A stretch of DNA of 64,000 nt from Buxus sempervirens (lineage: Eukaryota; Streptophyta; Magnoliopsida; Buxales; Buxaceae): NCBI GenBank assembly GCA_947561395.2, contig OX387191.1:38643439-38707438 (forward strand), in the 5' to 3' direction. The position numbers and the translations under genes are program-made. Positions 9,114-63,736 of this stretch are shown here, piece after piece. How positions within the stretch are numbered: position 1 is the stretch's first letter; every line of letters starts with the position of its first letter. Under the pieces are notes generated by a model that was not told where the DNA came from, ran no database searches, and saw only the letters and a list, made by a program, of their open reading frames with translations.

Positions 9114-9241
9114 AAAAACCTATGCAAACCAGTAAACAATAAAAATTAATTTAAAAAAAAAACCAAACAGTAGAATAATATTATTTAAAATATATTTTTG
9201 AGTGAATTTAAACACAAAACCACACAACTTTTAGGAAGATC
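9114..9241. other. AT-rich spacer, nothing recognised
   Basis: Short A-rich stretch between the putative solo LTR and the LTR of element 3. Confidence 0.6.
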
Positions 9242-10461
9242 TGTGAGACATGGAAAATCACCTATGTGATCTCCTGATCATCACATGGGGTTTACAAAAT
9301 GAAGGAGTCGCCACCACTCAAGTTAAGGTGTGAATGGGCACCAAAGTGATCATAAAAAGAACAAAATAGAGTTAAAGTAGCTCTAATTCATGGTCTTGTC
9401 CAGAGATTGGATAAGGGGATTAGATTATAAGTAGAGGAAGGTGTTAGGCATCCCTACTCATCCATACAAAATGGTTGCCATATGCTATTCATGCTTTAAA
9501 AGTGCTTGCTAACAAAATCAATCAAAAAGTGCTTGAAAAGAGACAAATATATGTGTGATTTTTCCATATGAGTAATCCAATAAATCCTGGACTTTCTCTA
9601 TGGATATATCACCTTTAGGACTTCATGATCAAGTAAAAATTAAGGTAAAACTTGAAGAAAATCAAACTAAAGCAAATCTGAAAAATCAACTCTATGTTAA
9701 GCCATTTAATCTTGGAAAACTCAACCATCCATAAATCATTCAATTCAAATTTAAATTGAGTGAAATCAAAGCCATTTGAAAGCTTATGTGAAGTATAAGA
9801 TTCAGTGGAAAATTCAATTAAATTCGATTGAAATCAAAGAAAATACACTTGTTCAAAATTGCTGTTGTTAAACAGTAAAAGCGGTGAGTAGCCAACTTTG
9901 AAAGCCTATTCATGGAGATTCACTCCATATAAAACATTGAAAATGGGTGTCAATGAAGTATGAGGTGCCATCTTTCGAATGAAATAGGCCTCACTCAAAA
10001 CTTCATCCATTTGTAGCTTGTGTGTCCTCTCAAACATACTTAGAGGATCACAGATTGACTCTATAATCTGCTACTGAGCAGTACAGAGTCAATTAAGCAC
10101 ACAGAGATCAAATCAAAGTGAAAACTCATGAAATCAACTAGAATTTAAAAATAGATTCATAAAGGAAGACTTGGAAATTGAAATCACTCAAATCGAAGTT
10201 AAAATGAGCCTTTGGTACTCAATCAAATTGACAAGTTCAACAATCTGATTTGATCTAACTTATCAACTTTAATCAAATGGTTTGAAAAATGGCTTTATAT
10301 AAATTGCTCAAATTTTATAGGATTAAACTAGACATCCTCACCTTTCACATCTCTCTAGTATCATTGAAAAATTCATCCATATAACGAAGTTATGAATGAT
10401 CCAAGACAGGGTACAGGTTCTGTCCATATCTGTAGAATTGAGTGAAAATAAAGCCAAAACA

Positions 10462-10486
<25 letters not shown>
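10462..10486. repeat. (GT)n microsatellite
   Basis: About twelve GT units, followed by GCGCGC; inside the element 3 LTR. Confidence 0.95.
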
Positions 10487-10495
<9 letters not shown>

Positions 10496-11155
10496 TTGAT
10501 ACATATGATCTGATTTGAAATCACTTAAAATGAGTTGAAAAACTCCCAGAAAGCTTTAGGGTAAGGATTTGGCTCACATCTCTCATTATTTGGAGAGGAA
10601 GAGCCAAATCTACCCAAATTGATGCAAATTGCTCAGAATAGAGAGATTAGACCATGAGGTCTTCTCTAGAAGATTAAAATCACTTAAAATCAACTCAAAA
10701 AGTCCTGAGAGATTGCTCTAATGCCTCTGATCTCAGATCTACCATATTGAGTATGATAGATCTAAGATCTATGCATATTTTGACAAAAAGCAAGTGATGT
10801 GTGCATGGCAATTGTGTAGGAAATCAAATTTTGAGGAGAGAATTGAGATCTAATGCTATAGAGAGTATAGATCTATGAAATTCTTCCAGATTTGAAATCA
10901 AAAGACATACAAACAGCAATCACATACAAATATAAGCAAATCATGTAATTACCTCATCCAAAAGTGGTTCTAAGCCTAAGGTTCCATCCCAACACTTGTT
11001 TCCCCTAGCTCTCTCTTCACGTTTTATGACTAGATAGGGTGTTTAAGGTACTTTAAGAATGATTTGGGGTTCCAAACACAGCCATGCCCTTATTTACAAA
11101 AAGGTAGAAGGAGAGAGTGTGCTTGAATTGAAATAAAAGAAGAAGAAGAGGGTAG

Positions 11156-11168
11156 GAGCTCACCTTGA
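11156..11168 (-). promoter_or_regulatory. candidate 5' splice donor in element 3 LTR
   Basis: Minus-strand CAAG|GTGAGCT about 95 nt downstream of the TATA box. It is at the same place as the CCAG|GTAAGT donors of the other LTRs. Confidence 0.5.
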
Positions 11169-11257
11169 GTGCTTGAAAGGATTTGGGCAGAGTTTCTCTT
11201 CCTCTTCAAGAGCCTTAGACCTCCAAATTCCAGCCATTTGCAAAAGGAGAGGCCCTC

Positions 11258-11265
11258 TATTTATA
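11258..11265 (-). promoter_or_regulatory. TATA box of element 3 LTR
   Basis: Minus-strand TATAAATA followed by GAGGG, identical in context to the TATA boxes of the element 1 and 2 LTRs. Confidence 0.8.
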
Positions 11266-11479
11266 GGCAAGAGCAAAGGTAGGAAAGTCACAAGGGTGGA
11301 CACAAAAGTGTGTCTAGAACCTTCCAACTCAAGTCTAAAGCATCAATTGGGGTAATTTGGACAATTTCGGAGGCCAATTTGGGGAATTTAGACATCCCAG
11401 ATAGAGGTATGGAAGAAAATAAGTGAAGGCTCATGGGTTTTTTCAAATTGAACAAAAATACCCATGACCAAAAATACAG

Positions 11480-11568
11480 TTCGGTTATACACAAAAACAC
11501 CTATAACCGAAATTATATTTCGATTATAAGTGTATTATGTGTAACCGAAATTAAATTTCAGTTACACA
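11480..11568. repeat. inverted-repeat array in element 3 LTR (ACCGAAAT type)
   Basis: A TTCGGTTAT half-site at about 11480 is followed by two inverted repeats: ATAACCGAAAT / ATTTCGATTAT (11502-11528) and TGTGTAACCGAAATT / AATTTCAGTTACACA (11538-11568), about 38 bp apart. The array is about 220 bp upstream of the TATA box. The 28-bp arrays occupy the same place in the LTRs of elements 1 and 2, but the motif is different. Confidence 0.7.
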
Positions 11569-11666
11569 TGAAATTGAATTTGACCAAACTAAGTTTTCAG
11601 TTCAGACCAAAAATGACTATCTGCACAGCTTCTGCATAGCCTTGACCCTTACCTGCACAGGCAATA

Positions 11667-11748
11667 CTTATTTACATGTAATATCATTTAAGTAAATGTC
11701 CTCGTATTTTTTAATGTCCATTTACTTAAAATATTACATGTAAATAAG
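11667..11748. repeat. long near-perfect hairpin
   Basis: Arms at 11667-11698 and 11719-11748 (CTTATTTACATGTAATA...TTTAAGTAAATG and its reverse complement) pair over 30 bases with a single 2-base bulge and a loop of about 20 bases. It could be a small MITE or a structured part of the LTR. No target duplication is obvious. Confidence 0.7.
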
Positions 11749-12197
11749 CAAACACCCCCTTACCAATTTGAATCCATTAAAATAGTTTTAGACCCAAATT
11801 CCAAGTGAATAAAAAGTCAACTTTCCAGTTCAAGGCTAAATTCTGGTTTTTCAGGTCCGATAAAAAAATTCAACATGTTAATACTAAGGTATTTGTCAAG
11901 ATTTAAAGGCTCAAAAAATTCATTTATTCAATAACATTGCTAAAAACCTAATTACCAGGAAAAATTATCTTGAAATCTTGCCTTAAAAAATATTTCATTT
12001 TTTGGGTCAAAAGTCAACAAAATTCAACTGAAAAGGTTTGAATTCGCCTAAAATATTGAATTTGGGCCTTTTCCTTTGTGGTTTTGGATTCAAATGGGTT
12101 AAGGATCTCAAACCCAATGCCAAGAATTGAAAATTTCAATAAGATATTTTTCTCCTTCAAAACTTATAAAAAATCATGCAATTTTGGAGTGTCTACA

Positions 12198-12213
12198 ACT
12201 ACCCCTCTTTGCT
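12198..12213 (-). other. polypurine tract of element 3
   Basis: Minus strand AGCAAAGAGGGGTAGT directly before the LTR start, matching AGCAAAGAGGGGGCAG in elements 1 and 2. Confidence 0.8.
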
Positions 12214-15069: not shown

Positions 15070-15177
15070 CGAAGTGTAGACACCCCAAATTGCACTACAA
15101 AATGAGAAAATAATGAAAACATGTAATTGGGATTTAAAGCAGGCCAAAAATGCATGAAAATCAATAATTTAAGCCTT

Positions 15178-15282
15178 GCCCGTATTGTATCCACGGGTTG
15201 AGCGCGCCCGAATTTTGTATACGGGTACGCAGCGCCCGTAATACATATACGGACACCACTGGACCGTAAATCATTTACGGGC
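15178..15282. repeat. 28-bp inverted-repeat array, element 2 5' LTR
   Basis: Four units start at 15178, 15206, 15234 and 15262, exactly 28 bp apart. Each is GCCCGTA-N7-TACGGGC followed by a 7-base spacer, with small variations. The array lies about 200 bp upstream of the TATA box. Confidence 0.95.
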
Positions 15283-15482
15283 ACATTAGATTTGTGCGAG
15301 TTTTATCCTTTCTCGATTTCTGAGCTTTATCTTTAGTCCAATATATCTTTAAATGAGCGAATTATCTCTTTTGTTCGTTAGAAATATCTTTGTTGGCCAT
15401 GGATGGGCATTATCCTTGTGTTTAACTCAATCTGAAACTCTATGTTGCCAAACCTTGGACCAACCATGCCCCTAGGTTTGCC

Positions 15483-15490
15483 TATAAATA
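15483..15490 (+). promoter_or_regulatory. TATA box, element 2 5' LTR
   Basis: TATAAATA followed by GAGGG; the likely promoter of the gag-pol transcript. Confidence 0.8.
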
Positions 15491-15583
15491 GAGGGTCTCT
15501 CCTCAAGCAAAAGGCCACGAAAATTTGAAGTCCAAGGAGCTCCAAGAGAAGAGAGGAATCCCTGCTGCTTTGCTTGCTCAATC

Positions 15584-15592
15584 CAGGTAAGT
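15584..15592 (+). promoter_or_regulatory. consensus 5' splice donor in element 2 5' LTR
   Basis: CAG|GTAAGT, a full plant donor consensus, about 100 nt after the TATA box. It is conserved in all four element 1 and 2 LTRs. The likely partner is the acceptor at 43035, just upstream of gag. Confidence 0.7.
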
Positions 15593-16886
15593 CCCTTTTC
15601 CCTTTTATTTTCTGTCTTCAATTATAGAAGTAATAGGATCTTCTCTATTGCCGTAGAATAAGGCCATCTTTTTATCTTGTATTCCTAAACTTGTCTCTAA
15701 GTACCTCAACAGTCTCTTTAGCCGTAAAACGTGAAGAGAGAGCTAGAGGAAAGGGGAACAGGTGGATCCCTAGAATAGAACCCCATATCTGTTTTTCTCC
15801 TTTCTAGAATAAGGCATTTGATTGTGTTTGTATCACCAAACCTATTTCCAAGTACCTCAAGAATCCTCTCTAACCGTAAAACGTGAAGAGAGAGCTAGGG
15901 GAAAAGAGAACAGGTGGATCCGTAGGGTAGACCCCCATGTGCTCTAATCTGTGAGATGTGGCTGCTTTGGATATCATGATCATGTTTTAATGGTTTTTAT
16001 GTTGAATCTGAATCAATCATATGAATCCATGATGTTTATAACATGAGATCCCCACTTTTTGCTAAAATTTGGATTTTTCACATCTTTGCACCTACAGCAC
16101 TGTTTTCGTGATTTTTGTAATATTAGGCTAAAATCCTGGATCTATCATGATCTATATGATAGACCTGGATTCAGAAGCCTGAAAGTAACTTCTAGGGTTT
16201 CATGATGTTGTTTTTGAGTCCTTTTGCATTATTGAGAGAAGACCCTACGGTCTAAGTTCTCCCATTTTGATGTTTTTCATCAACGTGGGTATTTTTGGTT
16301 TTGATTTCTTGATTTAATGTGAAATTTGGGCTATATCTGCATCCTGGACTATTCAAGTTCAAATCTGCAATATTTTATAAAAATCATATTTTTCTAGATT
16401 TCTAGAATTTAACTTGAAGCCAGATTTTGAAGTTTTCACTTTAGATTGGTTTTATTTGATTTTATTTCAATTTTATTTTAATCATGAAACCCTAGGAATG
16501 GTATGATCATATTTGAAAGTTCTAGTTCAATCAGGCTATTCGTATGAAAAAACCATACAGTTTTATCTTTTTGGTGATTTTTTATGATTTTTATAGCAAG
16601 CCCTTTTTCCTTTATTTTAACATGAACAATACCTGGCAACCACCTTGTGTGGATGAATAGGGGTTCCTAACACCTTCCCCTATTCATAACCTAATCCCCT
16701 TACCTATCTCTGTTTGTTTTTTTTAATAGGGTTATTTTTACCCTAAATTTGCCTCTTTGTGCTTATTTGAGATTTTGGTGTCCATTCACACCTAAACAGA
16801 ATGGTGGCGACTCTGTGTTTTTTAACCAATCCCGCGTGATGATTAAGGAATTCATTGAATTGATTTTTTTTCCCATGTCTCACAAC

Positions 16887-17374: not shown

Positions 17375-18779
17375 TGTGAGACATGTGAAAAAATCAAAAT
17401 TCATTGACTTCCTCTATCATCACATGGGATTAAATAAAACAAAGAGTCGCCACCATTTAATTTAGGTGTTAATGGACACCAAAATATTAAATAAGCACAA
17501 AAAGCAATTTTAGGGTAAAAATAACCCTCCTAAAAAAACAACCAGAGATGAGTAGGGGGATTAGGTTATGAACAAGGGAAGGTGTTAGGCACCCCTATTC
17601 ATCCACACAAGGTGGTTGCTAAGCATTATTCATGTTAACATAAAGGAAAAAGGCTTGCTATAAAAATCATAAAAAATCATAAAAAGACAAAAATTGTATG
17701 GTTTTTTCATACGAAAAGTCTGATTGATCCAGAACTTTCAAATATGATCATACCATTCCTAGGGTTTCATGATTAAAATAAAATTGAGATGAAATCAAAT
17801 AAAATCAATTTAAAGTGAAAAATCCAAAAATCTGGCTTCAAGTCAAATTTTAGAAATCTAGAAAAATATGATTTTTATAAAATATTTCAAAATTGAACTT
17901 GAATAGTCCAGGACATAGATAAAGCCCAAATTTCATATTAAACCAAAAATAAAAACCAAAAATACCCACGTTGATGAAGAACATCAAAAGGGGAGAATTT
18001 AGACCATAGGGTCTTCTCTTAATAATGAAAAACGATTTAAAAACCACATCATGAAACCCTAGAATTTATTTTCAGGCTTTTGGATTAAGATCTACCATAT
18101 TGATCATGATAGATCCAAGATCATAGCCTAAGACCACAAAAATCATGAAAACAGTGTTGTAGGTGCAAATATGTGGAAAATCCAAATTTTATAAAAAAAA
18201 GTGGGGATCTCATGCTATAAACCTCATAGATTCATGTAATTCATTCAGATTCATCATAAAAACAATTAAAACATGATCAGGATATTCAAAGTAGCCACAT
18301 CTCACAGATTTGAGCTCATGGGGGTCTACCCTACGGATCCACCTGTTCTCTTTTCCCCTAGCTCTCTCTTCACGTTTTACGGCTAGAGAGGATTCTTGAG
18401 GTACTTGGAGATAGGTTTGGTTATACAAACACAATCAAAGGCTTTATTCTAAAAAAATGAGAAAAACAGATATGGGGTCCTATTCTAGGGATCCACCTGT
18501 TCTCTTTTCCCCTAGCTCTCTCTTCACGTTTTACGGCTAGAGAGACTCTTGAGGTACTTAGAGACAAGTTTAGGAATACTAGATAAAAAATATGGCCTTA
18601 TTCTACAACAATAGAGATGATCCTATTACATCTAGAATTGAAGACAGAAAATAAAACGGAAAAGGGACTTACCTGGATTGAGCAAGCAGAGTAGCAGGGG
18701 TTCCTCTTCTTCTCTTGGAGCTTCTTAGAATTCCTTGGACTTCAAAATTTCGTGGCCTTTTGCTTGAGGAAAGGCCCTC

Positions 18780-18787
18780 TATTTATA
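18780..18787 (-). promoter_or_regulatory. TATA box, element 1 3' LTR
   Basis: Minus-strand TATAAATA in the conserved context before GAGGG. Confidence 0.75.
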
Positions 18788-18987
18788 GGCAAACCCAAGG
18801 GTATGATTGGTCCAAGGTTTGGCAAGATAGAGTTTCAATTTGAGTTAAACACAAGATAATGCCCATCCATAGCCAACCAAGGTGGCTTCAGCGAATAAAA
18901 TACGTAATTCGCTCATTTAAAGATATATTGGACTAAAGATAAAGCTTGGAAATCGAGAGAAGGATAAAACTCGCACGAGTCTTTAGT

Positions 18988-19091
18988 GACCGTAAATGAA
19001 TTACGGTCCAACGGTGACCGTAGTTTCAATACGGGCGCGCCTGACCGTAGAGCGATCTCGGGCGCGACCGGCCCGTGAATGAAATATGGGC
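18988..19091. repeat. 28-bp inverted-repeat array, element 1 3' LTR
   Basis: Four units of GACCGTA/GCCCGTG-N7-TACGGTC/TACGGGC type at 28-bp spacing, with one spacer a base short. It lies about 200 bp upstream of the TATA box. Confidence 0.93.
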
Positions 19092-19194
19092 AAAGCCTGC
19101 TTAGTCAATTTTTATGTATTTTTGACCTGTTTTAAGTTCTAATTACATGTTTTTATTACTTTCTCATTCTGTAGTGCAATTTGGGGTGTCTACA

Positions 19195-19541: not shown

Positions 19542-19645
19542 GCCCGTATTTGTATCATGGACCAATGCTACCCGTAGGTTGATCACGGGCGAACGGGACG
19601 GTTTTATTTTCTCGGTCGTCTGAAGCCCGTACTGATTTTACGGAT
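19542..19645. repeat. 28-bp inverted-repeat array upstream of antisense gene A, element 1
   Basis: Four units start at 19542, 19570, 19597 and 19625 (one spacer is 6 bases). The last reads GCCCGTA-N7-TACGGAT and runs into TTTACT, the same end as the gene B array at 24130. Confidence 0.92.
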
Positions 19646-20942: not shown

Positions 20943-23785
20943 ATGGCCCGCCTTCGATCGGCTTCCAGGGATCCTGCAGATGAGCCTTCCTCTTCGAGGG
21001 TTAGGCGTGATCCTGCTGATGTGGCTGAGAGGGATTCGGATTCAGATATCCCAGATCTTCCTTCTGGGGATTCGCATGAGGCGACCCCAGAGGTATATTC
21101 TAGCCTTTCTGAATTTCAATATTCTTTCACAAAATACATCCTCTTGATCCTTTCCTTCTTTCAATTATTTTCTTTAGCTGGCTGTTGAGGCTTCATGCCG
21201 AGATAGGAGCCGTAGTAGGCGCCGGGTTGGAGGCAAAGATGGAGGCCATGATGAGGGCCGTAGAAGAGGCCGCAGAGGAGGCCGTGGCAGAGATGAGGCC
21301 AAGACCAGAGTTGATGTCCCTGAGGCGATTGCTGCCCAGATCAGGGATACTGATCTTTTGCATGGCTTGAGGACTCATTCCTCAGCGTGTATTAGGGCAG
21401 ATATCCCTCTAGAGTATCCGATGTCCCATTACAGAGGGAGCTGGGCCAGCTTTATTAAGTTTATTGGAGCTTGCAGTTCAACCTACCGCAGGGAGCTAGG
21501 CTTGTATGGCTTTGGCCTCTTTATCACTATTCCTGATGTGCGCCTAGATCGGGCCCTTATTGCGGCGTTGCTAGAGAGATTCTTCCCGGAGACTTTGAGC
21601 TTTCACTTCCCAGATATTGAGATTGGGATCCGGCCTTCTGACTTCACCCTTATCACCAGGATTAGGATGATTGGTGATGTCATTCCTGAGATGGTGATGC
21701 CAGAGATTGATGAGGTCGCTGCTTATCTTGGATATATCATGCTGCCTCCTGAGGCCTGGGATAGAGGTAGAGCGAGATTGTCTCTGACATGGTTGAGAGA
21801 GACTTTCAGGGCGAGGCAGTTTGGCCAGCTTGCCTCCGGTGATCATGTTTTCCCATACGCCTTCCGATTCCTTTTTTTGTACATGATGGGATCTTGCTTC
21901 TTCCCAGAGGACACGACTTCGGTTAGTCCTTATTTTCTGAGCTTACTGGGAGATCTGCATCGAGCGAGGAGGTATGCATGGGGCCCGCTCATTTTTGGTA
22001 CTATCTTGGCCGGCCTTTGCCGATCAGTGAGCGGCCTCTCTACTTCCAGAGGAGCTGGAGTTGGGTGCAGGTTCTTCTGGCCCTTTTTGCAGGTGAATCT
22101 TATTTCCCTTCTTTTTCTCTTTCTCTCCCTTTTTTTTTCTATCTCTCCTTTTCTATTCCTCTGACTCTTTTTCTTCTTTCTGCAGTTTTTTGCTAGGGTT
22201 TATATACCCTATTTCCGTCCTACCTCTACGATGTCTGAGGAGACGTATCCCATGGCAAGTAGATGGTGTCATGTAGAGCACGACTCTGAAAAGAGTCGTC
22301 CTAGGTCCGCCCGGGCCCACTTGGACAGGCTATACCGGTCTGAGGTAATCTATTTTAATTCCTCTTCTTTCTTCTTTCCTTTTCTTCCTGAATCACATAT
22401 CTAATATACCATTCTTTTTCTTCAGCTATTTGTCCCCAGGATGGAGGACATTCATGAAGTGCTGGCCCTGCATGCAGCCAGAGATGATGCTTTTGTCCCT
22501 GACCAGAGACGACAGAGATACCAGTTCTTTATTGGTCAGATGGGCAGCATTTGGTACTGTGGCAAGCGCTTCTTCTTTCAGCATGTAGGAGAGCCGCGGA
22601 TTCCTGCCATTCCTCCAGATACTACTCCCTCCTTTCCTCCTATGCCTGTAGATCCTGCCCAGTTCCTAGATTGGACTGAGGCAGAGACTTTATTAGAGGA
22701 GGGTGACTATGATGCCTGGTTCAGGCGAGCTTCTGTTGGGTGCCTCATGCCACCCATGCCTGTCTGTGGTGGAGTCACGGAGATAGCAGGGGTAGTGATC
22801 CGGGCTTATGATACGACGGTATGCCTTCTCTCTTTGTGATCTTCTATTTCCATTTCATTTGAACTTAGCATTTTTCTGACTTCTTTCTTTTCTATTTCAG
22901 GAGGCTCAGTTGGCAAAGATCCGGTCTCTGTATGCTGATCTAGAGCGACAGCGTGATGCTGCGATTGCCGAGCGGGACGCCCTTTATATCACGATCTCAG
23001 ACCTCCGGGGGCAGCTAGCCAGAGCACAGGGCCAGGAGGGTCCATCTGATGCACAGGACCAGGCGGGTCCATCTCATACTCAGGTTATTTTCTTCTTTTA
23101 TTTCCATTCCTGCTTTTGTATTAGTTTGTCTTGTTCTGACCGAAATTTCTTCTCTTAGTTTCAGGAGGACACAGCCGGCCCTTCTTCACTTGCTTCACCT
23201 ATGCCCATGCATCTTCGGGATGAGGTATTTTCTGTGGCACGGGTGGAGTTCGTGACTTCTCCCAGTCCGGCAGAGGCACCTGCAGCAGAGCCTGAGATCG
23301 AGGCTGATATTGCGCCTACTGCTGAGGATGTGCCAGAGTCTGCCCCAGTAGCTGAGACTGCTCCTGATGCATCTGCGGATGTAGATATGGAGTCGGCTAG
23401 GGATGCCGCGGTGGTAGAGCCTGTTGTGGAGGCTGGGACGATGGAGGAGGCTACAGTTGATCCTGTGCCTGAGGTGGATGTTGATATACCTGGGACATCT
23501 GCTCCTGCTGGTCCTGCTTCTAATGATTTTATGTCTGTTTATACGGATTCTGATATCGAGTCTACGGGATATATAGATACTTCAGGGTACGTTCCTCTTG
23601 ATCATCCCACTGCTGGCCTTGTGCCTTTATATATGTAGCATGATATTCAGTCTGTTTTGAGCAGGATGACCCGTATTATAGCCCGTAACATAGTTCGATA
23701 TGTTTTTGAGCCCCGGCGATCTTCAGGCCATGGTCGAGGCAGAGGACGTGGTCGTGGCCGTGGCCGTAGGGGTGGACCTGCGTAG
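20943..23785 (+). pseudogene. antisense gene A, element 1: plant mobile domain protein with RG-rich regions
   Basis: Six coding exons join in phase 0: 20943-21092, 21178-22092, 22186-22344, 22426-22818, 22901-23083 and 23165-23785. All introns are GT-AG, short and pyrimidine-rich. Exon 1 is acidic/serine-rich. Exon 2 begins with an RG-rich stretch, then the plant mobile domain: LLERFFPETLSFHFPDIEIG, DFTLITRIRMIGD, and YAWGPLIFGTIL...FFWPFLQ. Exon 5 is a predicted coiled coil, exon 6 a long acidic A/E/P region, and the end is an RGRGRGRG tail before the stop at 23783-23785. An in-frame TAG at 23636-23638 replaces a TTG seen in element 2. Plant mobile domains occur in transposons and in the host proteins MAIN/MAIL1. 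The gene runs opposite to gag-pol. A role in element regulation is inference. Confidence 0.8.
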
Positions 23786-23998: not shown

Positions 23999-24130
23999 AT
24001 CCGTACTTAGACTACGAGCAAGCCGTGCCCGTAAAGTTACTACGAGCGCACTCTGCCCGTAAAGTTTTCACGGTCAAGGGTGTCCGTATTTCTTATACGG
24101 GCGCACTATGCCCGTATTATAATTACGGAT
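23999..24130. repeat. 28-bp inverted-repeat array upstream of antisense gene B, element 1
   Basis: Five units start at 23999, 24027, 24055, 24082 and 24110. The fourth reads GTCCGTA-N7-TACGGGC. The array ends 22 bases before the TATA box, so it sits directly on a core promoter. Confidence 0.95.
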
Positions 24131-24251: not shown

Positions 24252-26062
24252 ATGGCTTCCCTTGCACCGTTCTCTTCTGTCGTTGAATCTCCTCCTGTAA
24301 AACAACATGTTAGATCCAAACCTCCTAATCTCACCAGGTATAATGTGGTAGATTCTTTCTATGACAGATAGATTAACTCCATGACCCTTGATGAGGAGAT
24401 TCGTTGGGATTCCATCCACTTAGGGCATATCCTTCACATCCCTAAAATTCCCTTTAAGTGGGAAATCATTGAAGCTTTGATTGGACACTAGGTTCCTGAA
24501 CTGAATCTCTTCCATTTTGATGACAAAGAGATGACTCCTACCATAGAAGAAATTGAAACCATCCTTGGCTTAAAATTTTCTGAAAAAGTTGTGAACCCGC
24601 CCCTAAGACCTAGTTACAAAAAGGAGGCTTCTACATTCCTGGGTTTAGGGAAGAAAGACTTAGGGAGTTCTGATACCCTATTGACCTTGTCCAAGACCTT
24701 TTTGACTGAAAAACTTCTAAGGAGTGGGGACAAGGATGCCAGGTTTAATGCTTTGACTTTGGTAGTGGTCAACCAGTTGCTATTTCCACGGGGTGACGAC
24801 CAGGTTGACTTGGCTCTTATCTCAGTTATCTGCCAGGTTAAGGAACGTGAGAGGTTGGCCCCTATGATCTTAGCAGAGATATACCAGGCCCTTACTGACT
24901 GTTATTTCAGAAAGAAGAAACGCTTCCTTGCCTGTGCCCCTATCCTACAGGTAAGAAAATAAATAAATATTTTTTTCCTTTTTTTTCTTTTCTTTTTTTT
25001 CTTTCTTCTTTTCTTCTTCTTTTTTTTCTTTTTTTTTCTTTCTTTTTTCTTTCTTTTTTCTTTCTTCTCTTCTTTTTTTTTCTTTCCTTTTTTTTATTTT
25101 TTCTTTCTTCTTTTTTTTTCTTTTTTTTTCTCTTTTTCTTTTTTTTTATTTTTGCAATAAATTGAAATTCTCCCCTTTTCTGCAGCTTTGGTTGCTTGAC
25201 CACCTGAGCCAAGTTGAAGAGATAACTCGCCGCTTCTTTCCAAGGTTGAAAGTTCCTGTTCTGATGAGCCACAGGGGTTGTCTTAATATCCAAGGCGGTA
25301 AGCAGGGATGGTTCACTTTCTTGGGTACTCTCCAGGATGATCAAGTGAGATGGCCTGGCACTTGTCAGCCCAATCCAGAGACAGTGATCAGCTTCAGAGA
25401 TAGGAACTTTCTGGTCTTGGAAGGCTTGAAATCTACTATTCTCTATCTTCCTTTGAGGGTTCTTCGACAGTTTGGAGCGACCCAGGGAATTATGATCCCC
25501 ATTGGCTATGAGAGCCTTGTAGGGCCACTTACATCAGCCACCATGGGGCTAAATGCTCAATTAATGAATGAGTGGTCCTATGTTCGCTTTCTGCGGGGTC
25601 CTGTCTTTTTTGTGTCCCATGTGAAGGACTATCACTTCTGGATCAAAGAGCAGGTGCAGAGTCATGCCCCAGTACCAAAGGATCCTCCTGCAGTTCTTCC
25701 TCCTACCTATGAGGACATTCTGGAGTCTGAAAGGGCAACCCATAAGCGGCTTCAACAAATATGGGTACGGGAGGCTCAAGAACTTAGGATAAAAGTCATT
25801 GATCTGGAGAGGAAACTTGAAGAGCAGAAGTCTGGCCGTATTGCCATGGAGAAGATTTGAAGAACAAAGGCAAGCTCGTCGCTTTGAAGTCCGAGTGATG
25901 CGGAAGAAATATCAGGATTCCTTGGCCGACCTTAGGGCATTGAAGATCAAGCATTCTTTTTCAGATGAGGTCATCTCCTTTTTGAGTGATCCTGATGCAG
26001 AGGGAGCTTCTGGAATCATTGCAACTCAAGCAGCTAGGATTAGGGACTTGAGGAGCAGTTAG
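24252..26062 (+). pseudogene. antisense gene B, element 1: DUF7745-like protein
   Basis: Two exons: 24252-24950 (233 codons) and 25186-26062, joined in phase by a GT-AG intron made almost only of T and C. The protein opens MASLAPFSSV and has an alpha-helical body with MTPTIEEIETILGLKF, FNALTLVVVNQLLFPRGDDQVD and LAEIYQALTDCY...CAPILQ|LWLLDHL. These resemble the plant DUF7745-type proteins common beside retrotransposons; that assignment is by eye. The C-terminal 100 residues are a charged coiled coil. Damage: TAG codons at about 24369 and 24489 (TGG in element 2) and a small deletion near 25855 that shifts the frame. Function unknown. It converges on pol, with about 930 bases between the two 3' ends. 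Confidence 0.7.
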
Positions 26063-35577: not shown

Positions 35578-35710
35578 AACCGTATACACAGTACGGTCCA
35601 GCCATGCCCGTATTCAAATTACGAGCGAGCCGTGACCGTATGAAATTCACGGGCGAACCCCGCCCGTATAACCAATACGAACGAGCCCAGCCCGTGTATT
35701 AAATACGGTT
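35578..35710. repeat. 28-bp inverted-repeat array in the leader, element 1
   Basis: Five units start at 35578, 35606, 35634, 35662 and 35690, perfectly spaced. An example unit is GACCGTA-N7-CACGGGC. Confidence 0.96.
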
Positions 35711-36934: not shown

Positions 36935-38229
36935 GTTGTGAGACATGGGAAAAAATCAAAATTCATTGACTTCCTCTATCATCACACGGGATTAAATAAA
37001 ACAAAGAGTCGCCACCATTCAATTTAGGTGTTAATGGACACCAAAATATTAAATAAACACAAAAGGCAATTTTAGGGTTAAAAATAACCCTCCTAAAAAA
37101 ACAACCAGAGATGAGTAGGGAGATTAGGTTATGAACAAGGGAAGGTGTTAGGCACCCCTATTCATCTACATAAGGTGGTTGCCAGGCATTGTTCATGTTA
37201 AAATAAAGGAAAAAGGCTTGTTATAAAAATCATAAAAAATCATAAAAAGATAAAAATTGTATGGTTTTTTCATATGAAAAGTCTGATTGATCCAGAACTT
37301 TCAAATATGATCATACAATTCCTAGGGTTTCATGATTAAAATAAAATTGAGATGAAATCAAATAAAATCAATTTAAAGTGAAAATTCCAAAAATCTGGCT
37401 TCAAGTCAAATTCTAGAAATCTAGAAAAATATGATTTTTATAAAATATTTCAAAATTGAACTTGAATAGTCCAGGACATAGATAAAGCCCAAATTTCACA
37501 TTAAACCAAAAATAAAAATCAAAAATACCCATGTTGATGAAGAACATCAAAAGGGGAGAATTTAGACCATAGGGTCTTCTCTCAATAATGAAAAACGATT
37601 TAAAAACCACATCATGAAACCCTAGAATTTATTTTCAGGCTTTTGGATCCAGATCTACCATATTGATCATGATAGATCCAAGATCATAGCCTAAGACCAC
37701 AAAGATCACGAAAACAGTGCTGTAGGTGCAAATATGTGGAAAATCCAAATTTTATAAAAAAAAGTGGGGATCTCATGCTATAAACATCATAGATTCATGT
37801 GATTCATTCAGATTCATCATAAAAATAATTAAAACATGATCAGGATATTCAAAGCAGCCACATCTCACAGATTTGAGCTCATGGGGGTCTACCCTATTGA
37901 TCCACCTGTTCTCTTTTCCCCTAGCTCTCTCTTCACGTTTTACGGCTAGAAAGGATTCTTGAGGTACTTGGAGATAGGTTTGGTTATACAAACACAATCA
38001 AAGGCTTTATTCTAAAAAAAGGAGAAAAACAGATATGGGGTCCTATTCTAGGGATCCACCTGTTCTCATTTCCCCTAGCTCTCTCTTCACGTTTTACGGC
38101 TAGAGAGACTCTTGAGGTACTTAGAGACAAGTTTAGGAATACTAGATAAAAAAGATGGCCTTATTCTACAACAATAGAGATGATCCTATTACATCTAGAA
38201 TTGAAGACAGAAAATAAAACGGAAAAGGG

Positions 38230-38238
38230 ACTTACCTG
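38230..38238 (-). promoter_or_regulatory. consensus 5' splice donor in element 1 5' LTR
   Basis: Minus-strand CAG|GTAAGT, the proposed donor for the leader intron that ends at 34236. Confidence 0.7.
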
Positions 38239-38342
38239 GATTGAGCAAGCAGAGCAGCAGGGGTTCCTCTTCTTCTCTTGGAGCTTCTTAGAATTCCTTG
38301 GACTTCAAAATTTCGTGGCCTTTTGCTTGAGGAAAGGCCCTC

Positions 38343-38350
38343 TATTTATA
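38343..38350 (-). promoter_or_regulatory. TATA box, element 1 5' LTR
   Basis: Minus-strand TATAAATA; the probable promoter of the element 1 gag-pol transcript. Confidence 0.8.
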
Positions 38351-38550
38351 GGCAAACCCAGGGGTATGATTGGTCCAAGGTTTGGCAAGATAGAGTTTCA
38401 GTTTGAGTTAAACACAAGATAATGCCCATCCATAGCCAACCAAGGTGGCTTTAGCGAATAAAATACGTAATTCGCTCATTTAAAGATATATTGGACTAAA
38501 GATAAAGCTCGGAAATCGAGAGAAGGATAAAACTCGCACGAGTCTTTAGT

Positions 38551-38654
38551 GATCGTAAATGAATTATGGTCCAACGGTGACCGTAGTTTCAATACGAGAG
38601 CGCCTGACCGTAGAGCGATCTCGGGCACGACCGGCCCGTGAATGAAATACGGGC
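38551..38654. repeat. 28-bp inverted-repeat array, element 1 5' LTR
   Basis: Four units aligned with 18988-19091, with a few base changes between the LTRs (for example GATCGTA for GACCGTA). Confidence 0.93.
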
Positions 38655-38762
38655 AAAGCCTGCTTAGTCAATTTTTATGTATTTTTGACCTGTTTTAAGT
38701 TCTAATTATATGTTTTTATTACTTTCTCATTCTGTAGTGCAATTTGGGGTGTCTACAGGAAT

Positions 38763-39522: not shown

Positions 39523-39655
39523 AACCGCATTTGTTACACGGGCTGGGCTCGCCCGTATTGGTTATACGGGCTGGGCTCGCCCGTGTTAACTATACGGTCG
39601 CAGCTTGCTCGTAATTTAAATGCGGGCAAGGCTGAACCGTACTGTATATGCGGTT
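39523..39655. repeat. 28-bp inverted-repeat array in the leader, element 2
   Basis: Five units start at 39523, 39551, 39579, 39607 and 39635, all 28 bp apart. The second is a perfect GCCCGTA-N7-TACGGGC. Confidence 0.96.
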
Positions 39656-39787
39656 TTTGCGGAAAATTCAACTTTAATCAGTTTTTCCCACTAAATTTGG
39701 TTCCTTTAACCTTTAAATGATGATAAAGGGAAATGAGTTTGAATAAAATGCTTCAAAAAACAAAAAAACAAAAAATATATATATATC

Positions 39788-42285: not shown

Positions 42286-42290
42286 CCTTT

Positions 42291-51193: not shown

Positions 51194-52965
51194 CTAAGCC
51201 CTATTCCCTAACTGCTCTTCAAGCTCCCTAATCTGAGTAGCCTGAGTTGCAATGATTCCGTAAGCTCCCTATGCATCGGGATCGCTCAAAAAGGAGATGA
51301 TCTCATCTGAAAGTGATTGCTTGATCTTCAACGCCCTAAGGTCAACCAAGGAATCCTGATATTTCTTCCGCATCGCTCGGACTTCAAAGCGACGAGCCTG
51401 TCTTTGTTCTTCAAGTTTCTTCTCCATGGCAATGCGACAAGACCTCTGCTCTTCAAGTTGCCTCTCTAGATCAATACCCTTTATCCTAAGCTCTTGTGCT
51501 TCTCGTACCCAAATTTGTTGAAGCCGCTTGTGGGTTGCCCTTTCAGACTACAGAATGTCCTCATAAGTAGGGGGAAGAACTGCAGGAGGATCCTCTGGTA
51601 CTGGGGCATGACTCTGCACCTGCTTTTTGATCCAAAAATGATAGTCCTTCACATGGGACTCAGAAAAGACTGGACCCCGCAGAAAGTGAATATAGGACCA
51701 CTCATTCATTAATTGAGCATTTAGCCCCATGGTGGCTGATGTAAGTGGCCCTACAAGGCTTTCATAGCCAGTTGGGATCATAATTCTCTGAGTTGCTCCA
51801 AACTGTCGAAGAACCCTCAAATGAAGATAGAGAACAGCAGATTTCAAGCCTGCCAGGACCAGAAAGTTCCTATCTCTGAAGCTGATCACTGTCTCTGGAT
51901 TGGGCTAATAAGTGCCAGGCCATCTCACTTGATCATCCTGGAGAGTACCCAAGAAAGTGAACCATCCCTGCTTGCCGCCTTGGATATTTGGACACCCCCT
52001 GTTGCTCATCAAAACAGGAACTTTCAATCTTGGAAAGAAGCGGCGAGTTATCTCTTCAACCTGACTCAGGTGGTCAAGCAACCAAAGCTGCAGAAAAGGG
52101 GAATATTTCAATTTATTTCAAAAAGAAGAAGGAAAAAAAAAAGAAAAAATAGAAAGAAAAAAAAAAGAAAAAGAAAAAAAAGAGAAGAAAGAAATAAGAA
52201 AAAAAAAAGAGGAAAGAAAAAGAGAAGAAAAAGAAGGAAAAATATATATATTTATTGCTCTTTTACCTGTAGGATAGGGGCGCAGGCAAGGAAGCATTTT
52301 TTCTTTCTGGAATAGCAGTCAGTCAGGGCCTGGTATATCTCTGCCAAGATCATAGGGGCCAATCTCTCACGTTCCCTAACCTGGCAGACAACTGAGATAA
52401 GAGCCAAGTCAACCTGGTCATCACCCCGTGGAAAGAGCAACTGGTTGACCACTATCAAAGTCAAAGCATTAAACCTGGCATCCTTGTCCTCACTCCTTAG
52501 AAGTTTTTCAGTCAAAAAGGTCTTGGACAAGGTCAATAGTGTATCAGAATTTCCTAAGTCCTTCTTCCCTATACCCAAGAAGGTGGAGGCCTCCTTTTTG
52601 TAGCTAGGCTTTAGGGACGGGTTCACAACTTTTTCAGAAAATCTTAGGCCAAGGATGGTTTCAATTTCTTCTATGGTAGGAGTCATCTCTTTGTCATCAA
52701 AGCGGAAGAGATTCAATTCAAGAACCCAGTGTCCAATCAAAGCTTCAATGATTTCCCACTTAAAGGGAATTTTAGGGAGGTGTAGGATGTGGCATAAGTG
52801 GATGGAATCCCAGCGAATTTCCTCATCAAGGGTAATGGAGTTAACCCACCTATCATAGAAGGAGTCCACAACATTGTACCTGGTGAGATTAGGAGGTTTG
52901 GATCTAACAGGTTGTTTTGCAGGAGGAGATCCATCGACAGAAGAGAAAGGGGCGAGGGAAGCCAT
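51194..52965 (-). pseudogene. antisense gene B, element 2: DUF7745-like protein
   Basis: Exon 1 (52965-52267, 233 codons) is fully open and the same length as in element 1. Its donor is CAG|GTAAAAG at 52267/52266. Exon 2 runs from 52087, after TTTCTGCAG|, to the TAG at 51194-51196. It contains three in-frame stops, near 51906 (CAG in element 1), 51550 (GAG) and 51270 (GAG), but no frameshift was seen. The intron is almost pure A/G on the + strand. The C-terminal coiled coil (LQQIWVREAQELRIK...LEEQRQARRFEVRAM) continues to LEEQLGNRA, so element 2 shows the full-length C-terminus lost in element 1. It shares the TATA box and upstream array with element 1. Function is unknown, and the family call rests on by-eye similarity. 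Confidence 0.72.
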
Positions 52966-53086: not shown

Positions 53087-53191
53087 ATCCGTATTTAAAA
53101 TATAGGCAAGGCGTGCCCGTAATAAAATTACGGGCGCCACGTGCCCGCATTAAATTTACGGGCACTGCTTGCCCGTATTTAAAATACGTTT
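53087..53191. repeat. 28-bp inverted-repeat array upstream of antisense gene B, element 2
   Basis: Four units start at 53087, 53115, 53143 and 53171, exactly spaced. The second reads GCCCGTA-N7-TACGGGC. Confidence 0.96.
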
Positions 53192-53406: not shown

Positions 53407-56246
53407 CTATACAGGTCCACCCCTACGGCCACGGCCACGTCCTCTGCCTCGACCACGGCCTGAAGATTGCCGGGGCTCAAAAACATGTCACACAATGTTA
53501 CGGGCTGTACTACGGGTCATCCTGCTCAAAACAGACTGAATATCATGCAACATATATAAAGGCACAAGGCCAGCAGTGGGATGATCAGGAGGAACGTACC
53601 CGAAGTATCAACATATCCCGTAGACTCGGTATCAGAATCCGTATAGACAGGCTCAGGATCGGCAGTAGCAAGATCAGCAGGAATGGACGTCCCTGGAGCA
53701 TCAGTATCAGGACTAGGCTCCACAGGATCAGCAGAAGCCTCCTCTATCACTATGGCCTCCTCGATAGGCTCCACCACAGCAGCATCCCTGGCCGACTCCA
53801 AATCCATATCAGCAGCCGCATCAGGAGCGGTCTCAGGTGCTAGAGCAGACTCTGGCACATCCTCAGCAATAGGTGCTATATCGGCGTCGATCTCAGGCTC
53901 TACTGCAGGTGCCTCTACCGATCTGGAAGAAGTCATGAACTCCACCCGTGCCACAGAGAATACCTCGCCACGAAGATGCATAGGCACAGATGAAGTAGGT
54001 GAAGAAGGGCCGGCTGTGTCTTCCTGAAAATAAGAAAAGAAATTTTAATCAGAACAGGATAAACAGATATAAGAGCAGGAATGGAAATAAGTGAAAGAAT
54101 TAACCTGGGTATGAGATGGACCCGCCTGGTCCTGTGCATCAGAAGGGCTCACCTGGCCCTGTGCCCTGGCAAGCTGTCCCCGGGGGTCTGAGATAGTAAT
54201 GTAGAGGGCGTCCCGCTCAGCAATAGCAGCATCTCGCTGGCGCTCTATATCAGCATATTGAGACCGGATCTCTGTCAACTGAGCCTCATGAAATAGAAGA
54301 GAAGTGTCAGAAAATGCCAAGTCCAATAGAATATATGAATTGAAGATCAAAAAAGGAGAAGGCATACCGTCGTATCGTAGGCCCTAATCACTACTCCTCC
54401 TATCTCCGTGACTCCGCCACGGACAGGCATGGGTGGCATAAGGCACCCGACTGAAGCTCGCCTGAACCAGGCATCATAATCACCCTCCTCCAATAATATC
54501 TCTGCCTCAATCCAATCTAGGAACTGGGCAGGATCAACAGGCATAGGAGGAAAGGAGGGGGTAGTATCTGGAGGAATGGCAGGAATCCGAGGCTCTCCAA
54601 CATGCTGATAAAAGAAACGCTCGCCGCAATACCAGATGCTGCCCATCTGACTAATAAAGAACTAATATCTCTGACGTCTCTGGTCAAGGGCAAAGGCATC
54701 ATCTCTAGCCGCATGCAGGGTCAACACCTCATGAATGTCCTCTATCCTGGGGACGAACAACTGAAAAACAGAAAGAATAATATTAGACATGTGATTCAGG
54801 AAGGAAAAAAGCGGAAGGAGGAAGAATTAAAGAAGATTACCTCAGACCGATATAGCCTGTCCAGGTGGGCCCGGGCAGACCTAGGACGACTCTTTTCAGA
54901 GTCATGCTCCACATGACACCATCTACGAGCCATGGGATATGTCTCCTCTAGCATCGTAGAGGTAAGGTGGAAATAGGGGATATACACCCTAGCAAAAAAC
55001 TGCAAAAAGAAGAAAAAGGGTCAAGAAGAATAGAAAAGGAGAAAAGAGAAAGAAAGAGAAAGAAAAAGAAAAGAAATAGATATTTCACCTGCAGGAAGGG
55101 CCAGAAGAATCTGCACCCAACTCCAACTCCTCTGGAAGTAGAGAGGCCGCTTACTGATCGGCGCAGGCCGGCCAGAATGGTACCAAAAATGAGCGGGCCC
55201 CATGCATACCTCCTCGCTCGATGAAGATCTCCCAATAAGCTCAAAAAATGAGGACTGACAGAAGTCGTGTTCTCTGGGAAGAAATAGGAGCCCATCATAT
55301 ACAAGAAGATAAAACGGAAAGCAAATGGAAAAGCTGGATCACCAGCGACAAGCTGGCCAAGCTGCCTCCCCCGGAAGGTCTCTCTCAACCAAGTCAGAGA
55401 CAATCTCGCTCTCCCTCTATCCCATGCCTCCGGAGGCAGCACAATATAGCTAAGATAAGAGGCGATCTCCTCGGCATCCGGCATCACCATCTCGGGAATA
55501 ATATCACCGATCATCCTAATCCCGGTGATAAGTGTAAAGTCAAATGGCTGGATCCCAATCTCGATATCTGGAAAATGGAAGCTCAATGTCTCAGGGAAGA
55601 ACCTCTCTAGCAGCGCCGCAATAAGGGCTTGATCCAGGCGAACATCTGGAATGGTGATGAAGAGGTCAAAGCCATACAAGCCTAGCTCCAGCGATAAACT
55701 GAACTGCAATCTCCAATAAATCTAAGAAAGCTGGCCCAGCTCCCTCTATAATGAGACATGGGATACTCCAAAGGGATGTCTACCCTAATACACGTTGAGG
55801 GATGAGTCCTCAAGCCATGCAAAAGATCAGTATCCCTAATCTGGGTAGCAACCACCTCAGGGACCTCAACCCTGGTCCTGGCCTCATATCTATCATGGCC
55901 TCCTCTGCGGCCTCCTCTACGGCCCTCATGGCCTCTATCTCGGCCTCCGTTGCGGCGCCCTCTACGGCACCTGTCTTTGCCTAAAGCCTCAACTACCGGC
56001 TAAGGAAACAATTGGAAGGGAGAAAGAATCAGGGTGATGAATTGTGAAGGAATGTGAAATTTCAGAAAGGTTAGAGTATACCTCTAGGGTCGCCTCACGC
56101 GAATCCCCAGAAGGGAGATCTGGGATATCAGAATCGGAATCCTTCTCAGCCCTCGAAGACGAGGCCACATCAGCATGATCCCGCCGAACCCTTGAGGAGG
56201 AGGGCTCATCTGCAGGATCCCTAGAAGCTGAACGAATACGAGCCAT
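53407..56246 (-). pseudogene. antisense gene A, element 2: plant mobile domain protein
   Basis: Exons on the minus strand: 56246-56082, 55999-55089, 54999-54841, 54760-54368, 54287-54105 and 54023-53407. Exons 3, 4 and 5 have exactly the lengths found in element 1 (159, 393, 183). Exon 1 is 15 bases longer, with an extra SSSRA-type insert. The mobile-domain blocks (LLERFFPETLSFHFPDIEIG, DFTLITGIRMIGD, YAWGPLIFGTIL) are present. Damage: a one-base loss near 55693 in exon 2, the acceptor before exon 5 changed from TTTCAG to TTTCAT, and a one-base loss near 53605. The RG-rich C-terminus is visible out of frame up to the TAG at 53407-53409. The ATG directly follows a CAG acceptor, so a 5' UTR intron is likely. 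Confidence 0.8.
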
Positions 56247-57582
56247 CTGCGGTTCAAATCAGGAAGATGTTTAATTATTCTTGTTAAAATTTTTATTGCT
56301 TGATTTTCATTTTAACCAAATTTAATTGATTTGCAGGAAAAAGAAAAATGGAAAGTGGAAAAAATATTTCAGACGTTCCTGACCAAATCAGGAGTCAATT
56401 AAAGAAGATTATCCTTTTGATCTCAAGAAATTTTTAAAGCTCCATTATCTTCTAATGGATTATTTTTTCAGTTGCTTATGCTTATTCGTATCTTTTTGAT
56501 TGGGTTTCAGGACAGTCAAGGCATGTTCAAACTAACATGAAGTTGTGAACAGGAGTTCAAGTCTATTGTGGTAATAGGGAAAATGCCTAACAAATCTAGG
56601 TTTGTTCAGGTGAAAATTCAGAGATATGTTATGATCACATCAGAACATTTGGATAGGATGTTCTAACATCCCATGGATCAGGGATCGGTCCATACCAGGC
56701 TATACAAGTGTCCAACTCAAGTTAAGGTGCAGATAGCATGCTAAGTGAAATTGGGTCATCCAAGAACAAGTCAAAACAGGCAAAGCATGGTTCATGCACA
56801 TTTTCAGATTAAAACTGGCAGAAGCAAAAGTCAAAATAATGCAAGCAATGAGCATCAGAAAATGAGCAAAACAAGCAGAAGAAGTGCAAGCATGATTCGG
56901 TAACTCAATGAAGGTAGAAAATTTCCTAAATAGCAGCATGGTTCGGATTACTATGGAAACAGAAGTCCAAATAAGAGACAAGCAAAGCAACAAGAGGATT
57001 TCGGCCACTCAAAAAAAATAAGTTCCTAAAGTTACAGAAATGGCAAGCAAAACAGGAAACATGGAATATCCTATGCATGGAGCAATTTAGTTCTTAAAAA
57101 AATCAGAATTGGCAGCTCAATGAAATTGTAAAGCATTTGGGGATTTCTACCATTCAAAAATTAACCATAAACAGACCAATGCTAGCTACTGTTCGGCATA
57201 TCTGTGTAAGTCAAATGAGAAGTTTGCAAAATAGAAATGGAAGCTTCGAGCTCACTCACAGGAGATGTTTGAGGGATGCTTGGAGCAAAAGGAAGTGAAG
57301 AGATACACTGGTATGATCAAGGCAACGGTCTCAGCAAGGCCACTGTCGCAAGGAGAAGCCGATAGTCGACAAGAGATGACAAGGCCGAATGAGCAAGTCG
57401 TCGCCGAAGAATGTGAGAATCTCCGGAGAAGACAAAGTCGCCACCGGAAGACAGGTGCGAGTTGTTGGAGATTGAAAGAAGAAGTAGAAGACCGGAGAAG
57501 AAGATATGGGCAAAGGAAAAATAGGGCAAAATGCGAGTAGAAGAGAAAGAAGAGTCACGCTGCGGTTAAGTAAAACCCCAAA
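56247..57582 (-). promoter_or_regulatory. putative promoter, 5' UTR and 5' UTR intron of antisense gene A, element 2
   Basis: Runs from the array (57583-57686) to the CAG acceptor before the ATG. It includes the purine-rich (on +) counterpart of the element 1 5' UTR and a conserved CT|GTGAGTGAG near 57257. No other gene is supported; the frame 57265-57540 is the reverse of the UTR. Confidence 0.4.
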
Positions 57583-57686
57583 ATCCGTAAAAGCAGTACG
57601 GGCCGCAGGCACCCGTAAAGGTAATACGATCCACTTCGCCCGTATTCAAATTACGGGCATCATCTGCCCGTAATTCAAATATGGGC
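57583..57686. repeat. 28-bp inverted-repeat array upstream of antisense gene A, element 2
   Basis: Four units start at 57583, 57611, 57638 and 57666 (one spacer of 6). The third reads GCCCGTA-N7-TACGGGC. The short spacer falls at the same place in element 1. Confidence 0.94.
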
Positions 57687-58036: not shown

Positions 58037-58139
58037 TGTAGACACCCCAAATTGCACTACAAAATGAGAAAATAATGAAAACATGTAATTGGGATTTAAA
58101 ACAGGCCAAAAATGAATGAAAATCAATAATTTAAGCCTT

Positions 58140-58244
58140 TCCCGTATTGTATCCACAGGCTGAGCGCGCCTGAATTTTGTATACGAGCACGCAGCGCCCG
58201 TAATACATATACGGACACCACTGGACCGTAAATCATTTACGGGC
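58140..58244. repeat. 28-bp inverted-repeat array, element 2 3' LTR
   Basis: Four units at 28-bp spacing, aligned with 15178-15282. Confidence 0.94.
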
Positions 58245-58444
58245 ACATTAGATTTGTGCGAGTTTTATCCTTTCTCGATTTCTGAGCTTTATCTTTAGTC
58301 CAATATATCTTTAAATGAGCGAATTATCTCTTTTATTCGTTCGAAATATCTTTGTTGGCCATGGATGGGCATTATCCTTGTGTTTAACTCAATCTAAAAC
58401 TCTATTTTGCCAAACCTTGGACCAACCATGCCCCTGGGTTTGCC

Positions 58445-58452
58445 TATAAATA
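58445..58452 (+). promoter_or_regulatory. TATA box, element 2 3' LTR
   Basis: TATAAATA before GAGGG. In a 3' LTR this promoter would fire outward into element 3. Confidence 0.75.

Positions 58453-63704: not shown

Positions 63705-63736
<32 letters not shown>

Follow-up and report, generated by a model that had tools for sequence, protein, structure and literature searches.

Palindromic arrays at the LTRs, leaders and antisense gene regions of nested Tat/Ogre retrotransposons in Buxus sempervirens: candidate sites of self-regulation

Two nested Ty3 retrotransposons of the Tat/Ogre type in the genome of Buxus sempervirens carry ten arrays of a short palindromic unit (motif 1), which are located in all four LTRs, in both leaders and in the regions of the antisense genes A and B of both elements. 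These arrays are candidate self-regulatory sites, and it seems rather probable that they serve a dimeric DNA-binding protein encoded by the element itself, most likely the PMD product of gene A and/or gene B, which would co-evolve with its sites. The stretch of DNA analysed, referred to below as the window, is 64,000 nucleotides long. Searches of the genome (676.5 Mb) were added to it, and these located the window at C14:38643439-38707438.

Nested elements and their antisense genes

The inner element of the window, on the minus strand, was inserted in the leader of the outer element, on the plus strand. The LTRs are as follows:

15075..16884, plus strand: 5' LTR of the outer element, 96% identity with 58037-59835
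58037..59835, plus strand: 3' LTR of the outer element, with a PPT-like AAAGAGGGGGCAGT just ahead
36937..38757, minus strand: 5' LTR of the inner element, from self-comparison
17375..19194, minus strand: 3' LTR of the inner element, 97% identity with 36937-38757

The outer 5' LTR begins with TGTAGACACC, and a PBS-like TGGCGACTCTGCTGGGGACTT directly follows the LTR. Traits reported for Tat/Ogre elements are a primer binding site for tRNA-Arg (PMC9289625) and a second RNase H domain that follows the first and precedes integrase (Neumann 2019, PMC6317226). The domain order in 26990-29140 was RT_RNaseH (1-90), RVT_3 (145-263), Integrase_H2C2 (357-411, below the cut-off) and rve (430-527), so that a second RNase H was present between RNase H and integrase. 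The extra PMD open reading frame of Tat/Ogre was also found, as genes A and B matched PF10536 over its cut-off. The placement of the second RNase H and the extra PMD genes are the reasons why the elements fit the Tat/Ogre group.

Several other features of the window were observed. A G-patch domain (30949-31830, E=3.4e-7) occurs in the polyprotein region of the inner element; this domain is listed among the atypical domains of Gypsy elements (PMC9289625). About 2.1 kb of the outer leader (40118-42285) had no counterpart in the inner copy. A third, divergent Ogre-type element (12196-15074 and 59836-64000), into which the outer element was apparently inserted, has gag-like sequence and leader repeats at the right and a 3' region and LTR at the left, and no pol-like match was detected in it by self-BLAST of the window. 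Tandem repeats in the leaders (34429-35445, 39787-40117, 42286-42856 and 62418-63500) have a period of 40-48 bp (149 bp in the third element), and their units are hairpins with a conserved GCCTTTGAA-like loop and stem letters that appear to covary. With the register set by the loop, 121 of 140 stem positions were paired in all the hairpins, compared with 115.2 (sd 1.75) after permutation (14/5000); the third element alone gave 151/5000, and the inner and outer elements alone gave no excess (1150/5000). These repeats are a candidate structured RNA array.

The antisense genes were delimited as follows:

20943..23635, plus strand: gene A of the inner element, multi-exon, open-frame limits, splice-like boundaries matching between the copies
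21178 to about 22092, 22880-23155 and 23159-23635, plus strand: PMD exon, coiled-coil-like exon and acidic last exon of the inner gene A, open-frame limits
53529..56258, minus strand: gene A of the outer element, open-frame limits, frame of the PMD exon interrupted
24252..25857, plus strand: gene B of the inner element, with exon 1 (containing stop codons), a T-rich intron (about 24951-25185) and exon 2
52252..52965, minus strand: exon 1 of gene B of the outer element, DUF7745 E=2.4e-20, PMD E=6.7e-12

The PMD match (PF10536) of gene A was at 21178-22161 in the inner copy (E=1.7e-15) and at 54948-55514 in the outer copy (E=5.1e-6, under Pfam's cut-off), and the inner gene B matched DUF7745 (E=1.6e-16) and PMD (1.2e-9) at 24492-24959. 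The A and B exons are thus PMD/DUF7745 by Pfam, with two other weak matches below the cut-off. The ends of the gene B intron are CAG/GTAAG (donor) and TGCAG (acceptor), and in both copies (24951-25185, 52120-52244) the intron consists of an extremely T-rich tract. In some copies elsewhere in the genome the B frame is open for 476-628 aa.

The substitution rates indicate that A and B are evolving as protein-coding genes. The dN/dS ratios were 0.12, 0.09, 0.18 and 0.59 for the exons of gene A and 0.16 and 0.18 for those of gene B, and five of the six exons (0.09-0.18) were near pol (0.09) and gag (0.13); the acidic exon of A (0.59) was indistinguishable from its other frames. The two genes are akin to each other, B exon 1 being 25-26% identical to fragments of A, with a PMD exon ending in LQV/GT in both, and their C-terminal stretches resemble a coiled coil, as judged by eye. 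An AlphaFold2 model of B exon 1 had a mean pLDDT of 34.5 and gave no usable structure; no homologue of this exon was found in the protein collection at E 1e-5, and no match among PDB structures. Viral contigs yielded no relatives. PMD-A1/A2 clades encoded by Gypsy elements have been described, and the PMD in Gypsy elements is credited there to Steinbauerova 2011 (Ikeda 2017, PMC5418596). For the PMD genes that Ogre elements carry in antisense, no stated function was found in the open-access literature covered.

Motif-1 arrays in the window and in the genome

The unit of motif 1 is approximately G[C/A]CCGTA-N7-TACGG[G/T]C. All of the ten arrays and 43 units that had been predicted were present:

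15178..15282, plus strand: U3 of the outer 5' LTR, 4 units, TATA gap 200 nt
18988..19091, minus strand: inner 3' LTR, 4 units, TATA gap 200 nt
19542..19645, plus strand: gene A promoter region, inner, 4 units, one of them poor (4 mismatches at 10 core positions)
23999..24130, plus strand: gene B promoter, inner, 5 units, TATA gap 22 nt
35578..35710, minus strand: inner leader, 5 units
38551..38654, minus strand: inner 5' LTR, 4 units, TATA gap 200 nt
39523..39655, plus strand: outer leader, 5 units
53087..53191, minus strand: gene B promoter, outer, 4 units, TATA gap 22 nt
57583..57686, minus strand: gene A promoter region, outer, 4 units
58140..58244, plus strand: outer 3' LTR, 4 units, TATA gap 200 nt

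The period of 28 bp given by the original prediction was exact in 28 of the 33 unit-to-unit steps, and the other five were 27 bp. With at most one mismatch, CCGTA-N7-TACGG had 32 matches in the window, all inside the arrays, while 0.13 were expected from shuffles. The G of the left-arm core was invariant (43/43), the commonest base at each of the nine other core positions occurred in 33-41 of the 43 units, and the central base of the unit was near random.

The arrays had also been expected upstream of TATA boxes and directly upstream of both antisense genes, and each expectation was borne out in part. The distance from array to TATA was 200 nt in all four LTRs and 22 nt in both gene B promoters, but the surroundings of the A and leader arrays showed no TATA. 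Similarly, the B array ends about 120 nt ahead of the B ATG, whereas the A array, about 350 nt from the 3' LTR, is separated by about 1.3 kb from the first recognised coding frame of A. The leader array was considered as the promoter of a further gene, and this was rejected, the longest open frame in the leader pieces being 98 aa, with no TATA. Both copies also keep, in the stretch from gene A to the B array, a pair of direct CCCGTA half-sites at a distance of 12 bp (at 23681 and 53499).

Since arrays occur in both LTRs, they could be thought of as cis-acting sites of the integration machinery with no role in transcription. However, they are also present in the leader and in internal promoter regions, the LTR arrays lie about 100 nt from the LTR start and not at the termini, and arrays precede core promoters; this explanation is extremely improbable.

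In the whole genome, exact GCCCGTA-N7-TACGGGC was found at 11,266 sites and the reversed pattern at none. The same arms with N6 occurred at only 9 sites genome-wide, and the spacing between half-sites is therefore nearly fixed. Such a strict distance is like that of sites read by a protein dimer.

When the inner and outer copies were compared, differences were found at 28/182 arm positions, 31/91 centre positions and 19/62 spacer positions, that is, 28/182 in the arms vs 50/153 in centres and spacers together (Fisher p=2.5e-4); this comparison took the LTR3, A and leader arrays and omitted the B arrays, which have unequal unit numbers, and spacers of unequal length. The contrast of conserved arms with variable centres and spacers, as originally proposed, was evident in the LTR arrays (arms 9/56, centres 14/28) and the leader arrays (6/70, 10/35), but in the gene A arrays the two parts were not clearly different (13/56, 7/28). 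The arms were 85% identical between the copies and the flanking DNA 78-91%, i.e., the arms were no better conserved than the flanks, and it is thus the centres and spacers that are the fast-changing parts.

One could argue from this equal conservation of flanks and arms that the arrays are non-functional tandem repeats propagated by slippage and gene conversion. Changes by whole units (five in the inner B array, four in the outer) would fit this explanation, and tandem repeats are reported as common in the related Retand lineage (PMC11963269). On the other hand, arms are more conserved than centres and spacers, the TATA gap is fixed and N7 nearly so, and corresponding positions carry a different motif in different families, as described below. 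Non-functional repeats are therefore quite improbable as an explanation of the arrays.

The inverted arms could also be interpreted as hairpins in RNA or single-stranded DNA, with a role in packaging, reverse transcription or stability. In 233 distinct motif-1 units the arms did covary (1348/1631 paired; permuted 1311.7, sd 7.5; 0/1000), and the other repeats of the leaders resemble covarying RNA hairpins. In the units of the window, however, covariation was absent (189/231 paired; permuted 188.1, sd 2.9) and the letters of the arms were conserved. The loop is nearly fixed at 7 (11,266 vs 9 for N6), which is stricter than a hairpin should need, and the B array is upstream of the B TATA and therefore outside the B transcript begun there. 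We regard the hairpin explanation as very improbable.

The association of the arrays with the element was followed in samples of the genome. Gene B gave 5,489 first-look candidates, and the 150 that were scored were 89-100% identical. An array of at least two units with at most two core mismatches was present ahead of gene B in 19 of 20 copies sampled from the 150 listed, all 20 being from this top set of 89-100% identity. The last unit of these arrays ended about 120 nt before the ATG, and TATA was at -97 to -100 in 18 of the 20; of the exceptions, L028 had neither array nor TATA and L040 lacked TATA only. That related copies keep the arrays, as the original prediction requires, is supported by 19 of 20 sampled B genes, and a sister family has a different motif at its LTR, leader and B promoter.

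Twenty loci of 10 kb on C1 contained 37 multi-unit arrays, every one of them within Ogre parts. These loci were the first listed sites with an exact motif-1 unit and seven single units were excluded from the count, so the result is conditional on that choice. According to their labels, 25 of the arrays belonged to a second Ogre-type LTR family, 7 to LTRs of the window type, 3 to leaders and 2 to the A promoter region. When arrays were masked in both the reference and the loci, all 37 kept the Ogre label, although their division between the two LTR references from the window changed; locus L007 supplied the reference of the second family, and its own two arrays were labelled by construction. 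In the second family, TATA was within 60 nt of 14 of the 25 arrays, at 13-14 nt in 11 of these 14. Another array of this family (L005-L024) is located about 0.9 kb downstream of the TATA box, a place that is probably transcribed. The 37/37 in these unit-selected loci and the reversed control of 0 genome-wide agree with the expectation that the arrays are confined to the element.

Among other PMD loci, 19 of 20 (from 117 scored) had no array in the 1.3 kb upstream. The array at the remaining one (L059) belonged to an inserted LTR and was rejected as a promoter of the PMD gene itself, so none of the 20 had an array of its own, and an array is not something that PMD genes carry as a rule. A family in which two PMD genes stand in tandem, about 3.4 kb apart, was observed with twelve pairs among the 117 scored matches, for example at C14:24506346-24507422 and 24509794-24510840; the ORFs were mostly about 500-600 aa.

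Motifs 2 and 3 in related Ogre families

Two further motifs were found in related families, motif 2 (AACCGAAA-N5-TTTCGGTT; 1,470 exact sites genome-wide, control 3) and motif 3 (TATCCGGTA-N5-TACCGGATA; 3,456 exact sites genome-wide, control 0). All three motifs have the CCG-N11-CGG geometry in common. Motif 2 is present in the window:

9237..12195, minus strand: divergent LTR of Ogre type, sharing about 65-69% identity with the window LTRs in pieces
11466..11563, minus strand: motif-2 array in the U3 of this LTR, 3 units, steps of 38-39, CCG-N11-CGG core with decayed bases

This array has a TATA gap of 200 nt, equal to that of the four window LTRs. A weight matrix made from the 43 units recovered 42 of them in the window and gave five other matches (20 block shuffles gave 0-6), three of which form the tandem motif-2 array; three matches within 120 bp occurred in 0/300 Markov simulations. 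As the initial motif-2 pattern had been written from the same site, the weight matrix is the independent test. The three motif-2 LTRs fetched (L045-L047) were all homologous to the second motif-1 LTR family at their 5' end (69-74% over about 365-445 bp) and had the same layout, i.e., 1-2 units, about 80-100 nt, three units, 13-14 nt and TATA. L068/L069, tried as the LTR pair of a motif-2 element, had no match to window PMD, gag or pol and were rejected; no PMD genes of motif-2 elements were seen there.

Motif 3 was first met in an LTR adjoining a PMD gene. Its listed sites on C1 suggest sets consisting of an LTR site and sites at +3.6-3.8 kb, about +15 kb and about +20 kb, which is near the layout of the window. 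Among the 50 sites listed of the 3,456, 27 had the LTR centre, 6 were at leader distance, 7 at B distance and 10 at neither. Internal motif-3 sites chosen by position alone were directly upstream of an antisense PMD-B exon in 3/3 cases; these exons are 78-80% identical to window B, and all three promoters have a four-unit array with 13 nt to TATA. One motif-3 LTR (L074) and one leader (L073) have four units each, with at most 4 mismatches of 18 in the LTR and 6 in the leader, and three degenerate units (4-6 mismatches of 18) occur before the 3' LTR (L075). Motif 1, at no more than one mismatch, was not found in L070-L075. At its LTR, leader and B promoter, this family departs from motif 1 in a coordinated way.

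Host factors drive LTR promoters in general, and host proteins, either exploited transcription factors or repressors, might be what binds the arrays, with the difference between motifs reflecting recruitment of or escape from them. A promoter motif at MORC1, CATGCAGTTT, has been linked to the host PMD proteins MAIN/MAIL1 (PMC7156037), and no gene was detected next to the leader array. However, the MAIN/MAIL1-linked motif differs from the array motif, multi-unit arrays outside Ogre parts were 0/37 in the unit-selected loci, and the CCG-N11-CGG core common to the motifs is suggestive of a single family of binding proteins. Moreover, related Ogre families within one genome have three motifs between them, and the LTR, leader and B promoter of one of these families all bear motif 3; a host factor is hard to reconcile with motifs that differ coordinately at these three places. 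Binding by host proteins is therefore unlikely, although it deserves consideration.

Proposed mechanism and known systems

The multi-copy palindromic sites of the arrays are of a kind that a dimeric sequence-specific protein would bind. Acting at the LTR promoter, in the leader and at the promoter regions of A and B, one factor would control all transcription units of the element. Because sites of dimer type with a fixed distance and family-specific bases stand at the promoter of a constrained gene, the binder would most simply be the product of that gene; with sites at their own promoter regions, A and/or B would be autoregulated. Protein and sites would co-evolve, the families keeping CCG-N11-CGG and the array positions and changing the neighbouring bases together. 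The shared control circuit across the element's promoters that the original prediction had put forward, itself predicted from sequence, gains support from the Ogre location of 37/37 arrays, from 19/20 B genes and from the sister-family motif.

The factor could act as an activator, against silencing or as a feedback repressor. For cognate copies, activated transcription and/or local anti-silencing is favoured, by analogy, because the arrays precede core promoters and the nearest working analogue, VANC, acts in this way.

A wider proposal, which we hold tentatively as a real possibility, is that PMD is a sequence-specific dimeric domain reading CCG-N11-CGG, and that Ogre lineages diverged through joint changes in the protein and in the bases flanking this core, in the LTR, in the leader and at the antisense promoters. 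A single genome would then hold self-recognition circuits running side by side, each blind to the others, and the host proteins MAIN/MAIL1 would be domesticated relatives of such regulators. The lineage involved has thousands of candidate B matches in the genome (5,489 at first look). According to a review, how the PMD domain works, also in the host silencing factors MAIN and MAIL1, is "largely unknown", and a counter-silencing role has already been suggested for PMDs encoded by transposable elements (PMC8616336). The arrays provide concrete candidate targets with a built-in control (motif 1 vs motif 3), and antisense PMD function and the PMD mode of action are thus directly testable. The counter-silencing idea is prior; the target arrays and their co-variation are the part that we did not find in print. 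No description of such arrays in Ogre elements was found in titles and abstract beginnings of the open-access literature, with subscription papers mostly outside this scope, and no paper on tandem sites in the plant LTR of Tnt1 in the open-access literature.

Among known systems, PMD is present in 57% of Ogre elements (Neumann 2019, PMC6317226), and the host PMDs MAIN/MAIL1 affect genes with a common promoter motif (Nicolau 2020, PMC7156037). The excerpts of the papers on Gypsy and host PMDs describe neither a DNA target for Gypsy-encoded PMDs nor promoter arrays in Ogre (PMC5418596, PMC6317226, PMC7156037). The TRP28 ORFs that Retand elements carry in antisense differ in protein domain, and no target motif is described for them in the corresponding excerpt (Vicient 2025, PMC11963269). 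In foamy viruses, the regulator Tas, encoded by the retroelement, acts on the LTR and on an internal promoter (PMC4929722). A cis-site common to the LTR and the promoter of the presumed regulator gene was likewise found here, in the LTR and B arrays; unlike in foamy viruses, the internal promoters are antisense to gag-pol, two genes are concerned and the sites are palindrome arrays.

VANDALs are DNA transposons, whereas the present elements are Ty3 retrotransposons. Their PMD proteins are encoded in antisense, their site is palindromic and of dimer type, with a fixed spacing, and two families have arrays at corresponding positions. In the VANC/VANDAL system of Arabidopsis, the protein encoded by the transposable element recognises the motif of its own family, the target being YAGTATTAY for VANC21 and AGTTGTCC/AC for VANC6 (Hosaka 2017, PMC5735166). 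Both there and here, tandem short motifs lie in non-coding parts of the element and differ between related families, three motifs having been found in the present case. The present arrays are likened to VANC/VANDAL by their putative way of working and are not counted as a member of that system. If the proposal is true, they would represent a retrotransposon counterpart of VANC, a selfish element that knows its kin by a co-evolving DNA address.
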